NCBI GenBank assembly: GCA_011088105.1
Contig: JAALKI010000024.1
Location: 1 to 40,093 of the forward strand
From: Nitrospirota bacterium
GTDB taxonomy: Bacteria > Nitrospirota > Nitrospiria > Nitrospirales > UBA8639
DNA: 40,093 nucleotides
Reading direction: 5' to 3'
The stretch's first letter is position 1. Every line of letters begins with the position of its first letter. Position numbers and translations under genes: made by a program. Positions 1,478-11,325 of the stretch are shown in pieces. Under the pieces are notes generated by a model. It was not told where the DNA came from. It worked only from the letters and a program-made list of their open reading frames with translations, and did not search any database.

Positions 1478-3086
1478 ATGAAGAATGTATCGATTGCTGA
1501 ATGGAAACATCTTAAAGATCGAGAACCCGCCTACGCTTTAGTGGCAAACGTGGATCTGGTGATCGTGCGCTATGATGAACAGGTCTCCGTGCTGTACGGA
1601 CGATGTCTTCATCGAGGTGCGCTCTTAGCCGATGGGCAGGTTGAAGGGAATGATCTCATTTGTGGTCTCCACGGCTGGGACTTTCAATATGAGACAGGGA
1701 TTAGCGCGTACAACAATGCCGAGCGTTTGCACAAATTCACCGCCTGGGTCGAGGATGGCCAAGTCTGGGTAGACGAAGAGGAAGTGGCCGCATGGGAGCG
1801 CGAGAATCCTCAGCCCTTTCAACGGGATACCTATCTTGGCACCTATGCCGATACGCATCCTGTAGAAGAAGAACCTCATGTCAGTCTCATCCAAGGCTAT
1901 GCAGCACATGGACTAGAAAAAACAGGCCATCATGGCCTCGTAGCTGCAATGGGGGTACCTCGGATGGAATTGCCCATGTGGGATGCCATTCAATTTGTGA
2001 CCGCACAACTGGCAACACCTCCCCAGCTTGATGATGTGCCGGTCGGAACAGACGTGGTCATCGGGCCCAATGCCCAGAAACCCTTGCGGCTCATGCTGCC
2101 ATTGTTTGTGTCGGACATGAGTTTCGGCGCGCTCTCAGAAGAAGCCAAAATCGCCCTTGCGCAAGGAGCCGAGCTGGCAGGCACCGGTATTTGTTCAGGT
2201 GAAGGCGGTATGCTGCCGGAAGAGCAAGCTGGAAACTCACGGTATTTCTACGAACTCGCGTCTGGACGATTTGGGTTTTCGATGGAGAAAGTCCAACGAT
2301 GCCATGGCTTTCCATTTCAAAGACGGACAAGGCGCCAAAACCGGAACAGGCGGGCATCTACCCGGGCCGAAGGTCAAAGGCAAAATTGCCCAAGTGCGTG
2401 GGTTACCAGCAGGAGAACCCGCTGTTTCACCTGCTCGCTTTCCTGACTGGACGGACATTACCCAAATTCGTGACTTTGCCACACAAGTCCGTGAAGAGAC
2501 CGGGGGCATTCCGATTGGATACAAACTTTCGGCCCAGCATATCGAGAAAGATCTTGATGCCGCTCTTGAAATTGGTGTGGACTACATCATCCTTGATGGC
2601 CGTGGTGGTGGAACCGGTGCGGCCCCCATCATCTTCCGTGATAATATTTCCGTACCGACGATTCCTGCTTTGGCCCGAGCACGTCGACACCTCGATCGAC
2701 TCAACCGGCAAGATGTGACCTTGGTGATTACCGGAGGGTTACGCAAACCTGCTGATTTTGCCAAAGCTTTGGCCTTAGGCGCCGATGCCATTGCCGTCTC
2801 CAACGCCGCGATGCAGGCCATTGGATGTTTGGGTATGCGTGCCTGTCATACCAACAATTGTCCCGTGGGGATCGCGACCCAAAAAGACCATCTACGTGCT
2901 CGTCTCATGGTCGAAGAATCTGCTCAACGTCTCGCGCGATTTTTTGAAACCTCCGTAGAATTGATGAGCATTTTGGCACGAGCCTGTGGACACACACACC
3001 TCCATCAGTTTTGCCTCGATGACTTGACGACATTTAAACGACATATGTCTGAACTGACCGGGATCCCGTTTGGTGGCGTGCAGTAA
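1478..3086 (+). pseudogene. Rieske [2Fe-2S] / FMN-binding glutamate-synthase-like fusion, interrupted by a frameshift
   Basis: Residues 1-105 form a Rieske domain with the C-x-H ... C-x2-H pattern (CLH at about 43-45, CGLH 16 residues later). The rest resembles the central FMN/3Fe-4S domain of glutamate synthase: LPLFVSDMSFGALS, AGTGICSGEGGMLPEE, then in the +1 frame AFHFKDGQGAKTGTGGHLPG, ILDGRGGGTGAAP and CLGMRACHTNNCPVGIAT, whose cysteines match the 3Fe-4S ligands. The frames join near 2295-2300: removing one C from 'gtccaacgatgcc' restores one reading frame of about 535 residues. No slippery heptamer is visible, so this is a frameshift mutation or a sequencing error rather than obvious recoding. 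The start has AAGGAG 9 bases upstream. If intact it would be a cytoplasmic FMN oxidoreductase with its own Rieske electron relay; its acceptor is unknown. Confidence 0.85.
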
Positions 3087-6420: not shown

Positions 6421-7482
6421 CTAGGAGTTCTCGGCCTGCTGGACAGATTTGACGATGGCTTGGCTGGCACGGGTACTGAGAAATCGTTGCTGATCGTATC
6501 CCCATACGATTTCCCATGCTGAATCTTTATAGCGGGTGAGGAGTGGAAAGGCGACCTCATTCAGCATCCACTGGCCGTGCCGGAGGTCTTCTTTGATGTG
6601 CACATCCCAGTAGCTAATGGCTTTTTCGCTGAGGCCAAGCCGTTCCCCTGCGATTTTATAATTCTGGAATGCCGCAGGGACTGAGGTTTCGAAGTAGAGA
6701 AGGCTCCCAATGTATCGCAAGAAATGTCTCTTGTGCTCACAAACAGTAAAGCTGTGATTGATGTTGGCGAGGACTTCCCAGGGAACGATTTCAAAGTAGG
6801 CTTCTGGCATGGTATCCATGTCAAATTCTCTCAGCATTGCCGAAAAAAATGAGGAATGTTTCCTCGCCAATTTCCCTCCTCCATACTCCTCAAGCAAGAT
6901 TTTGGTGAGCATGGCTTGCACTTCGTTCCCCACGCCGCCAATGACCCGTGACAATTGGCTTGCTTCTACCAATCCATCCAGAGAGGTGATGGCCAACAAT
7001 TGACGGTACCCGGTCTGTGACATCTCATTGCGAAAGAACAGGCCAGTCTGCGAGGGCGCTGGATCAAGGTCTTCCGCTGTACGTTCCCGAAGCGCGGCCT
7101 CAACATCTATGTCCTTCAAGGAAGACAGAGCAATGTTCTGGGCCTCCCAGTCCTGCCAGACGGTCTCAATTCTCTTCCGTAAGGAAAAGAGGAACGCCGA
7201 ACTTTCATTGGTGTAATTCTCAAGATCGTCATACCAGAACAGTTTTAATCGGTTGATGCGATAGAGAATCCTTTGAAGGAAGAGATGTGCGTTGGGAGAA
7301 GTCGGCTGGTCTTCGTAGGCTTCTAATATGGCCACACCCAGAACAGACTCGAAGGGTTCTAGGCACTCAGGGGTATCGGACACATACCGATCAAGATCAT
7401 CATGCTGCAGGAGGTGCGTCAAGACCTCTTCCGCTTTGCGATAATCGATATCGGTAATGGTGTGAAAAGAAGAAAGGCTCAT
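6421..7482 (-). CDS. Haem-oxygenase-like di-iron oxidase (iron-containing redox enzyme family)
   Basis: A 353-residue protein whose C-terminal 170 residues have the ligand pattern of haem-oxygenase-like di-iron enzymes (HDOs, related to UndA, SznF and BesC): a helix with E198/E199 and H209 (EEYGGGKLARKH), E265 in LLYFETSVP, and the final helix H295-x3-D299-x2-H302 (YWDVHIKEDLRHG). All the expected ligands appear present. The first 150 residues are helical and not assigned. HDOs use Fe(II) and O2 for N-oxygenation, C-C cleavage or desaturation, usually in specialised metabolism. The gene is divergent from an EgtD-like methyltransferase across 127 bases, which hints at a joint pathway. No strong Shine-Dalgarno precedes the ATG at 7482. 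Substrate unknown. Confidence 0.8.
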   Translation of the reverse strand: MSLSSFHTITDIDYRKAEEVLTHLLQHDDLDRYVSDTPECLEPFESVLGVAILEAYEDQPTSPNAHLFLQRILYRINRLKLFWYDDLENYTNESSAFLFSLRKRIETVWQDWEAQNIALSSLKDIDVEAALRERTAEDLDPAPSQTGLFFRNEMSQTGYRQLLAITSLDGLVEASQLSRVIGGVGNEVQAMLTKILLEEYGGGKLARKHSSFFSAMLREFDMDTMPEAYFEIVPWEVLANINHSFTVCEHKRHFLRYIGSLLYFETSVPAAFQNYKIAGERLGLSEKAISYWDVHIKEDLRHGQWMLNEVAFPLLTRYKDSAWEIVWGYDQQRFLSTRASQAIVKSVQQAENS

Positions 7483-7609
7483 CAGATGAGGATAAAAATA
7501 TAAAAAGGCTGTATAGATATATATTGAAGGATAGTACGGTCACATTCTAGCAAGCACCCTTCAGGGTGAGCAAATCCTCAACGAGATCAACCGTGTAAGA
7601 AGGAGACCC
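7483..7609. promoter_or_regulatory. Divergent promoter region between the di-iron oxidase and EgtD-like genes
   Basis: These 127 bases separate two divergent starts. The part around 7490-7535 is AT-rich, with several TATA-like hexamers, and must hold at least one promoter for each gene. I cannot single out a -35/-10 pair or an operator. Confidence 0.4.
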
Positions 7610-8608
7610 ATGTCATTTCACTATCACAATTTACGATCGGGAACCGCTGCAGCATCGGTCGATGACCAGTTTGCTCAAGCCGTGCGTGAAGGCCTCTTGA
7701 GAGAACCGAAACGTCTTCCTTCGTGGTTGATATTCGATGATCAGGGCAGCGAAATCTTCACCGAGATTACCCAACTTGCCGGATATCATCCAGCTCAATG
7801 TGAGTTCGAGATATTCCAGACGCACAAACAGGCCGTCACCGATATCTTTGCGAAGACGCCCTTTCGGGTGATTGAGCTGGGAGCAGGAGATGGGCGGAAA
7901 ACTCACATTCTTCTTGAGCACTTCATCCAGAACCAGCTGCATTTTGAGTATGTGCCCATCGATATCTCCGAGGGCGCCACCCAGAATCTCGTGGCCTTTC
8001 TGGAGTCACGATTTTCCCAGAGTACCATGTCGGTCACAGGATTGGCCACTGATTACTTTGATGGACTCAGTACGGTCAAAGAACATGCCAATCTACGAAA
8101 CATGGTTCTCTTTCTGGGTTCGACCATTGGAAATATGGAGTTACCCGCAGCCGAGCAGTTCGTTCGGAATGTGCGGGAATCTTTGAACGAAGGGGACTAC
8201 GTCATGATCGGGTTTGATCTTATGAAGCACCCGAAGACGCTGTATTCTGCCTACAACGATTCAACAGGAGTGTTCGAACGATTCAACCTCCATCTCCTTG
8301 ATGTCCTAAATCAAAAGCTGGGGGCGAATTTTGTCAAAGATTATTATGTCCAGCAGGGACAGTATAATCCGCGAGCCCATGCGGTCGAGAGCTTTATTTA
8401 CAGTACCCGAGAGCAGGTTGTGTCCATTGATGCCTTGGGAGAGAAATTTCACTTCGGTGCGTGGGAACCGATGCAAACGGAGCACTCCTACAAATACACC
8501 CTATCAGAAATCACATTGTTGGCTGAGAACAGTGGGTATCGGATTGTGAAGCACCTGTTTGATGGAAACAACTACTTCGTGGATTCGATTTGGGAAGTGA
8601 AGAAATAG
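7610..8608 (+). CDS. EgtD-like histidine N-alpha-methyltransferase family protein
   Basis: A 332-residue SAM-dependent methyltransferase of the EgtD family. Visible elements are the SAM motif ELGAGDGRKT (89-98), PIDIS (117-120), FLGSTIGN (168-175), AYNDSTGVFERFN (214-226) and TEHSYKYT (290-297). In EgtD the Asn of the GSTIGN region and the Glu and Ser of the T-E-x-S-x-K motif bind the histidine substrate, and all are retained. EgtD makes hercynine, the ergothioneine precursor, but no egtB, egtC or egtE is in the window. The neighbour is a di-iron oxidase instead, so another product is possible. AGAAGGAG at 7598-7605 supports the start. Substrate assignment to histidine is likely but not proven. 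Confidence 0.88.
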   Translation: MSFHYHNLRSGTAAASVDDQFAQAVREGLLREPKRLPSWLIFDDQGSEIFTEITQLAGYHPAQCEFEIFQTHKQAVTDIFAKTPFRVIELGAGDGRKTHILLEHFIQNQLHFEYVPIDISEGATQNLVAFLESRFSQSTMSVTGLATDYFDGLSTVKEHANLRNMVLFLGSTIGNMELPAAEQFVRNVRESLNEGDYVMIGFDLMKHPKTLYSAYNDSTGVFERFNLHLLDVLNQKLGANFVKDYYVQQGQYNPRAHAVESFIYSTREQVVSIDALGEKFHFGAWEPMQTEHSYKYTLSEITLLAENSGYRIVKHLFDGNNYFVDSIWEVKK

Positions 8609-9151: not shown

Positions 9152-9472
9152 ATGGGTTCAAAATTGTATGTAGGTGGATTGCCGTATTCCGCGACTCAAA
9201 CAGAATTAACTGAACTGTTTTCGGCACATGGTACTGTTCAATCAGCGAACGTCATTAGCGACAAATTCACCGGCCAATCCCGTGGATTTGGATTCATCGA
9301 AATGTTGTCCGGAGAAGAAGCCCAAGCCGCAATTACAGCCTTACATTCTACGGAGTTTGGTGGCCGAACATTGACGGTCAACGAAGCCAAACCCCAAGCA
9401 CCACGCACTGGCGGTGGTGGTGGCTATGGCGGCGGCGGGGATTTTGGAGATAAACGTCGCAGCCGATTCTAA
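9152..9472 (+). CDS. RNA-binding protein with one RRM domain and glycine-rich tail
   Basis: A 106-residue protein. The RRM spans residues 3-81: RNP2 is LYVGGL (residues 5-10) and RNP1 is SRGFGFIEM (about 43-51). The tail is a glycine-rich segment (GGGGGYGGGG) ending RRSRF. This architecture matches the small bacterial and cyanobacterial Rbp proteins, which bind single-stranded RNA and are often cold-regulated. An AAAAGGAGG site lies just before the ATG, and a strong intrinsic terminator follows 22 bases after the stop, so it is likely a monocistronic, highly expressed gene. A truncated second copy with the same terminator occurs at 11137-11383. Confidence 0.93.
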   Translation: MGSKLYVGGLPYSATQTELTELFSAHGTVQSANVISDKFTGQSRGFGFIEMLSGEEAQAAITALHSTEFGGRTLTVNEAKPQAPRTGGGGGYGGGGDFGDKRRSRF

Positions 9473-10751: not shown

Positions 10752-11087
10752 TCAGGTATAGACTTCGTCCCAAGACGAGGAGACATACTGGCCTTGCCGG
10801 ACATGTCCCTTCCAGCCACGTTGCCGACTGAGCCGTTGAGCATAACGCATGTGTAAGGATTTGAGCACCCCTTGCCATCTCTCCTTGGTGGCCGGAGCGG
10901 CCACCAGGTGGATGTGATTGTCATGAGGCAATATGCCAGCATATCCACGTGGTTTTGATGGCAATAGTCTTTCAGCCAAGTCAGCTAGATTTGGCGAGCG
11001 TCATTCGGGAAAAAGACGTCCTCCCGCCGATTGCCACGTTGGGTCATATGATGGGGTACGTGGGCAAAGATCGTCCGGGCGAGGCAT
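10752..11087 (-). pseudogene. Decayed REP-associated tyrosine transposase (IS200-like, RAYT)
   Basis: The leftward translation reads ARTIFAHVPHHMTQRGNRRE, then DVFF, a TAG stop, LTWLKDYCHQNHVDMLAYCL, then after a frameshift NHIHLVAAPATKERW, LHMRYAQRLSRQRGWKGH and SSWDEVY. These are the hallmarks of Y1 transposases that mobilise REP elements, including the HIH metal-binding motif, but the frame holds at least one stop and one frameshift, so the gene is dead. A perfect 9-base palindrome (TGGTGGCCG/CGGCCACCA, 10886-10906) lies inside it and may be chance. Confidence 0.85.
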
Positions 11088-11136
11088 GGAGGTAGCATCC
11101 CATAGAAAAAGGGAGGTGTACCCTTTTTATAGCTCC

Positions 11137-11325
11137 TTAACTGTTTTGGCACACGGGACGGTCCAATCAGCAAACGTCATTAGCGACAAATTCACCGGCC
11201 AATCCCGTGGATTTGGATTTATCGAAATGTCGTCCGGAGAAGAAGCCCAAGCCGCACGCACTGGCGGTGGTGGCTATGGCGGCGGCGGGGATTTTGGAGG
11301 AGGTACCCGTCGCAGCCGGTTCTAA
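11137..11325 (+). pseudogene. 5'-truncated, internally deleted copy of the RRM gene
   Basis: From 'ttaactg' at 11137 the sequence follows the RRM gene at 9152-9472, closely so after the first 25 bases. It keeps HGTVQSANVISDKFTGQSRG, RNP1 and the glycine-rich tail ending RRSRF, then the same terminator. Missing are the first 20 or so codons (with RNP2 and the start codon) and about 24 codons between EEAQAA and RTGGGG. A forward frame stays open upstream to 10933 but translates antisense transposase sequence. It cannot make a complete RRM and is best seen as a duplication remnant. Confidence 0.85.

Follow-up and report, generated by a model that had tools for sequence, protein, structure and literature searches.

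Haem-oxygenase-like di-iron oxidases/oxygenases (HDOs) catalyse widely different reactions with the same or near-identical metal ligands, and the reaction is known for only about a dozen of them (PMC13108848). HrmI, SznF and RohS are N-oxygenases (PMC13108848, PMC10724926), and an HDO sub-group with three histidine and four carboxylate ligands (3H/4C) has been described (PMC13108848). A precedent for a methyltransferase and an HDO N-oxygenase that act on one amino acid is SznE/SznF (PMC11705231). In EgtD, the enzyme that methylates the alpha-amine of histidine, the carboxylate of the substrate is bound by Tyr56, Tyr206 and Ser284 and its alpha-amine by Asn166, while Thr213 positions a water that contacts the imidazole nitrogen (PMC8593015). 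In the literature, we found no description of a pair of an HDO and an EgtD-like methyltransferase such as the one analysed here.

A conserved divergent gene pair

The window is a stretch of 40,093 nucleotides of a Nitrospirota genome (contig JAALKI010000024.1). On its minus strand, at positions 6421–7482, it contains a gene for an HDO of 353 aa with a match to PF14518 (E = 6.8e-28, 98.1 bits; gathering score 28.9), and on its plus strand, at positions 7610–8608, a gene for an EgtD-like SAM-dependent methyltransferase of 332 aa with a match to PF10017 (E = 1.7e-85, 287 bits; gathering score 23). The divergent intergenic region between them (7483–7609) spans 127 bp. A previous reading of this DNA, made from its letters (hereafter the sequence-only reading), had described the two open reading frames, their divergent orientation and the 127-base gap; all of these were confirmed, with both profile matches far above the gathering scores. 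It had also proposed, from neighbourhood, a functional link between the two genes, which the subsequent survey of related loci supported.

In the family of the window, the HDO occurs in 17 of 49 genomes, and the divergent methyltransferase lies beside it at all 15 loci that could be assessed because the contig runs beyond the start of the HDO gene. The same divergent pair was present at all three loci of a sister family. The gap between the genes measured 111–127 bp in 19 of 20 loci and 383 bp in the remaining one. Besides the pair, each gene family was common to at most four of the 16 compared loci; a third gene kept across these 16 loci was not found, and a larger operon or cluster around the pair was rejected. 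The pair also occurs, with 81% identity to the window, on a contig titled Ignavibacteria (JAPUKJ010000289.1), which probably either comes from a Nitrospirota genome and was mis-binned or reflects a recent transfer.

PF10017 proteins were present in 28 members of the family of the window in our phylum sample, and a second strong PF10017 copy occurred in exactly those eight of the 28 genomes that possess this HDO. The chance of this coincidence is about 3 in 10 million (1 in C(28,8)) with the genomes taken as independent, a value that shared ancestry turns into a guide only. The protein distances of the HDO and the methyltransferase were correlated as well (r = 0.74, a value reached in 0 of 5000 Mantel permutations), mainly a sign of shared inheritance. 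Based on the conserved synteny and the perfect co-occurrence in the family of the window and its sister family, we consider the linkage of the two genes well supported and hold it with high confidence.

Homologues of the HDO, with 52–82% identity, were detected in three families of the phylum. In one of these, which belongs to the class of the window (family f7), the HDO shares 52–57% identity and the same invariant core, and no PF10017 gene was found. The pair is thus not obligatory. A methyltransferase of this type without the HDO was never found in this sample, and the existence of the HDO alone but not of the methyltransferase alone suggests that the HDO acts first. At two of the four f7 loci (L053 and L055), a different SAM methyltransferase (PF13649) is encoded 33–55 bp downstream of the HDO gene; its ortholog was not found in the genomes of the other two f7 loci. 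This enzyme was considered as an alternative HDO partner in f7 and set aside, as its presence at only two of four loci, probably through one evolutionary event, would lend such a role weak support at best.

A plasmid-borne form of the pair was also sought and rejected. The plasmid records comprised 23 with an HDO and 52 with an EgtD-type protein, and among the matches listed (all but 12 of the 52) one replicon, Streptomyces NZ_CP108509, was in both sets, with its HDO and EgtD-type genes about 290 kb apart. A genome-wide scan with exact peptides, a method blind to distant pairs in other phyla, retrieved close relatives only.

Elsewhere in the window, a protein with Rieske and glutamate-synthase domains appears to be split (1478–3086). 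Its Glu_synthase match extends to profile position 134 in the open reading frame at 1478–2446 and covers positions 134–367 in another frame at 2157–3086, and this break across frames points to a frameshift or an assembly error. A gene for an RRM RNA-binding protein (9152–9472) is followed 1.5 kb on by a partial copy (10933–11325; about RRM profile positions 22–56) that shares GTVQSANVISDKFTGQSRGFGFIEM and a Gly-rich tail with the full gene. Next to this partial copy, a short open reading frame on the minus strand (10752–10979), which has an HDNHIHLV stretch and no Pfam match, resembles the remnant of a REP-associated transposase.

The divergent intergenic region

The alignment of 19 intergenic sequences contained a block with invariant columns, which in the window reads CATTCTAGCAAG-N13-GAGCAAA (7543–7574) and across the 19 sequences takes the form CATTCTAGCAAG-N-GAGCAAA or GATCAAA. 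From its reading TTGCTC-18-TAGAAT on the minus strand, we infer that this block is a -35/-10-like promoter element of the HDO gene; a promoter scan did not flag it. On the plus strand, the motif TGTATAG (7510–7516), which is TGTATAA in many relatives, is a possible extended -10 element of the methyltransferase promoter, and the conserved AGAAGGAG (7598–7605, plus strand) is likely the ribosome-binding site of the methyltransferase gene. A riboswitch in the conserved block was rejected, as all Rfam families scored far from their gathering scores.

Ligands and fold of the HDO

The HDO has all six metal ligands that had been named beforehand (E199, H209, E265, H295, D299 and H302), and none of them varies across 18 homologues. 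The same holds for a seventh acidic residue, E173, which the sequence-only reading had missed. E173 aligns gaplessly to residue 189 of SznF, which we take to be the extra carboxylate ligand of the 3H/4C sub-group. E173 is likely a fourth carboxylate, and the predicted ligand set would fit either a 3-His/3-carboxylate site or, with E173 included, a 3H/4C site.

The AlphaFold2 model of the HDO (pLDDT 82) has a haem-oxygenase fold. Its best predicted-fold match was HrmI (TM 0.78), followed by SznF and RohS, with UndA, CADD, BesC and AetD far lower, and a profile search of the PDB retrieved RohS, SznF and HrmI as the closest solved chains. The HDO shares only about 20% identity with any characterised member of its group. 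Since the nearest solved structures by both profile and fold are all N-oxygenases, the analysis favours N-oxygenation as the putative chemistry of this enzyme.

Distant HDOs were also seen on plasmids of Gloeothece, Azospirillum and Curtobacterium (L087, 7992–9715; L088, 7482–9229; L089, 4638–5947), each followed by a gene for a Rieske or CDGSH protein, a small Fe-S protein that is a likely electron donor. No Fe-S protein gene is adjacent to the HDO gene of the window.

A distinct methyltransferase clade with an altered pocket

The predicted fold of the methyltransferase is that of EgtD (TM 0.86 to 4pim). Against TIGR03438 it scored 260.7 bits, below the equivalog cut-off of 290.9, and five other clade members (264–278 bits) also remained below it. 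An EgtB-linked EgtD from Hymenobacter, included as a control, failed too (279 bits), which makes this cut-off a weak test. In a tree of 53 rows, a branch with 100/100 support set all 16 HDO-linked methyltransferases apart. This branch is long, and the nearest proteins were EgtD-like proteins of two other Nitrospirota families together with EgtB-linked EgtDs of cyanobacteria and Bacteroidota. The EgtD encoded on contig C13 of the same genome was not among the nearest neighbours of the clade, whose deeper placement is unsure owing to the long branches. On these sequence comparisons, the window methyltransferase is assigned to a distinct PF10017 clade.

With pocket residues numbered after EgtD of M. 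smegmatis, all 16 clade members retain the equivalents of Asn166, Tyr206, Tyr56, Glu282 and Ser284. Phe takes the place of Thr213 in 16/16 members, a change absent from the remaining 37 PF10017 rows; Tyr57 is replaced by His in 16/16 and Tyr39 by Phe in 13/16, and residue 283 is His throughout the clade (16/16). Met252 is changed to Ser, as it is in EgtB-linked EgtDs. The clade-specific residues of the window enzyme are Phe222 (corresponding to Thr213), His60 and His292. The earlier statement that the histidine-binding residues are retained thus applies to the first set and not to Thr213, Tyr39 and Tyr57. Judged from the alignment, the grip on the backbone of the substrate (the alpha-carboxylate and alpha-amine contacts) is kept, whereas the side-chain pocket is altered. 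The retention of Glu282 and Ser284 would be compatible with a histidine-like substrate as a possibility. Because Thr213, a residue of the imidazole pocket, is Phe in all 16 members, histidine itself, which the sequence-only reading had suggested, appears doubtful; it may be a possible substrate but is no longer the default one.

Ergothioneine-type genes in the same genome

The second PF10017 gene of the genome, on contig C13, passes the EgtD equivalog cut-off (342.6 versus 290.9 bits) and adjoins a cysteine-desulfurase-like, EgtE-like gene. Contig C24 carries an EgtB/SenA/OvoA-type gene beside a betaine-type ABC transporter, which is similar in type to a published ergothioneine importer (PMC9732360). 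In three relatives (L108–L110), an EgtB/OvoA/SenA-like gene, a betaine-type ABC ATPase, a fused OpuAC-permease, EgtD and an EgtE-like PLP enzyme form one cluster; in the genome of the window, this ergothioneine-type cluster is split over two contigs (L003, 8844–10934; L111, 7413–11060). Ergothioneine genes were not found among the conserved neighbours of the window methyltransferase and sit with the other EgtD. The absence of egtB and egtE reported earlier therefore holds within the window, but EgtB-like and EgtE-like genes exist elsewhere in the genome. The sequence-only reading had named two observations that would count against the pairing, a lack of linkage in related genomes and an egtB-containing set elsewhere that explains the methyltransferase. 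Linkage proved to be conserved, and such a set does exist but includes an EgtD of its own, leaving the window methyltransferase free of that role. We thus set aside an ergothioneine role for this enzyme, in agreement with its earlier placement outside ergothioneine synthesis, and consider it quite probable that the pair is a biosynthetic unit separate from ergothioneine.

Proposed function and alternatives

Our best explanation, which we advance tentatively, is an autonomous divergent unit of two enzymes: an amino acid is first oxidised by the HDO and then capped to a betaine by the methyltransferase. The HDO would use its di-iron centre and O2 to oxidise the amino acid; the most likely target is a nitrogen of the side chain, an N-oxygenation like those of HrmI, SznF and RohS. 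The methyltransferase would next use SAM to methylate this product at its alpha-amino group, and the end product would be a betaine-type metabolite. The specific chemistry, from the amino-acid substrate and its N-oxygenation to the order of the steps and the betaine product, is held with far less assurance than the linkage of the genes and is put forward as a suggestion.

The two steps might run in the opposite order, with N-methylation of the amino acid by the methyltransferase preceding N-oxygenation by the HDO, the order in which SznE and SznF act on arginine (PMC11705231). Besides this precedent, the HDO has SznF among its nearest matches in both sequence and fold. However, SznE is an arginine-guanidino methyltransferase and not EgtD-like, and the f7 HDO has the same invariant core in the absence of a PF10017 gene; we regard methylation first as unlikely. 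It is also conceivable, but in our judgement quite unlikely, that the methyltransferase is just another EgtD, producing hercynine or contributing to ergothioneine synthesis, with the HDO acting on hercynine or being an accidental neighbour. The EgtD fold (TM 0.86), the retained Glu282, Ser284, Asn166 and Tyr206, and the proximity of the clade to EgtB-linked EgtDs of cyanobacteria and Bacteroidota would be consistent with such a role. Against it stand the separate EgtD with EgtE-like, EgtB-like and transporter genes, the Thr213 to Phe change in 16/16 members, and the scores of six clade members (260–278 bits) below an equivalog cut-off that one EgtB-linked control misses as well, whereas the conserved linkage speaks against an accidental neighbour.

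Near-identical ligands support widely divergent chemistry among HDOs (PMC13108848), and the HDO could carry out another reaction on an amino acid, such as desaturation, C-C cleavage, rearrangement or ring closure, whose product the methyltransferase uses. This appears improbable, as the top solved matches are all N-oxygenases and UndA, CADD, BesC and AetD rank far lower. The same closeness to N-oxygenase folds, in a comparison that did not include DtpC, weighs against a stress-protection protein that resembles DtpC of Acinetobacter, an HDO needed for desiccation tolerance whose metal-ligand residues are required (PMC13232832). The methyltransferase would then make a protective betaine under the same control, and the divergent promoter region shared by both genes would suit this arrangement; DtpC itself may work through a small molecule (PMC13232832), and we consider this explanation improbable.

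Returning to oxidation by the HDO followed by methylation, the pair is a real, conserved, stand-alone (orphan) two-enzyme unit, and our best guess for its product is the betaine of an HDO-oxidised amino acid. Such a unit would show that a relative of EgtD was recruited away from ergothioneine and would bring to light a metabolite that is kept in part of a Nitrospirota lineage. Many HDOs of known reaction sit in larger clusters, whereas the HDO of the window is kept with a single partner alone. More speculatively, and on balance rather unlikely, the two enzymes might produce a new class of Nitrospirota metabolites, an alpha-N-methylated betaine with an HDO-oxygenated side-chain nitrogen, that serves as an osmolyte, redox buffer or metal ligand.

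Comparison with known systems

EgtD, the histidine alpha-N-methyltransferase, and the window enzyme share homology over the whole length, the fold (TM 0.86) and the backbone-binding residues. Unlike EgtD, the window enzyme is not encoded beside egtB, egtC or egtE and scores below the TIGR03438 cut-off; Thr213, Tyr39 and Tyr57 are changed in its clade, and the genome has a separate EgtD. The best whole-chain fold match of the HDO is the lysine N6-oxygenase HrmI (TM 0.78/0.81), at 19% identity, and we know of no EgtD-like partner of HrmI. HrmI is described as a 3H/3C enzyme (PMC13108848), whereas the window HDO adds the invariant Glu173. An equivalent of Glu173 is found in the alignment with the 2-aminoimidazole N-oxygenase RohS, the best PDB profile match of the HDO (E = 1e-14), but identity is about 21% and the partners of the roh operon were not found at the window locus. 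Unlike SznE/SznF, the window pair consists of two divergent genes outside any larger cluster. The methyltransferase SznE acts on the guanidine of arginine and is not EgtD-like, and SznF has an extra cupin domain that is absent from the window HDO. Nevertheless, the window HDO matches SznF closely, and the streptozotocin pathway offers a likeness to the proposed unit in its combination of a SAM methyltransferase with a PF14518 HDO N-oxygenase on one amino acid (PMC11705231).
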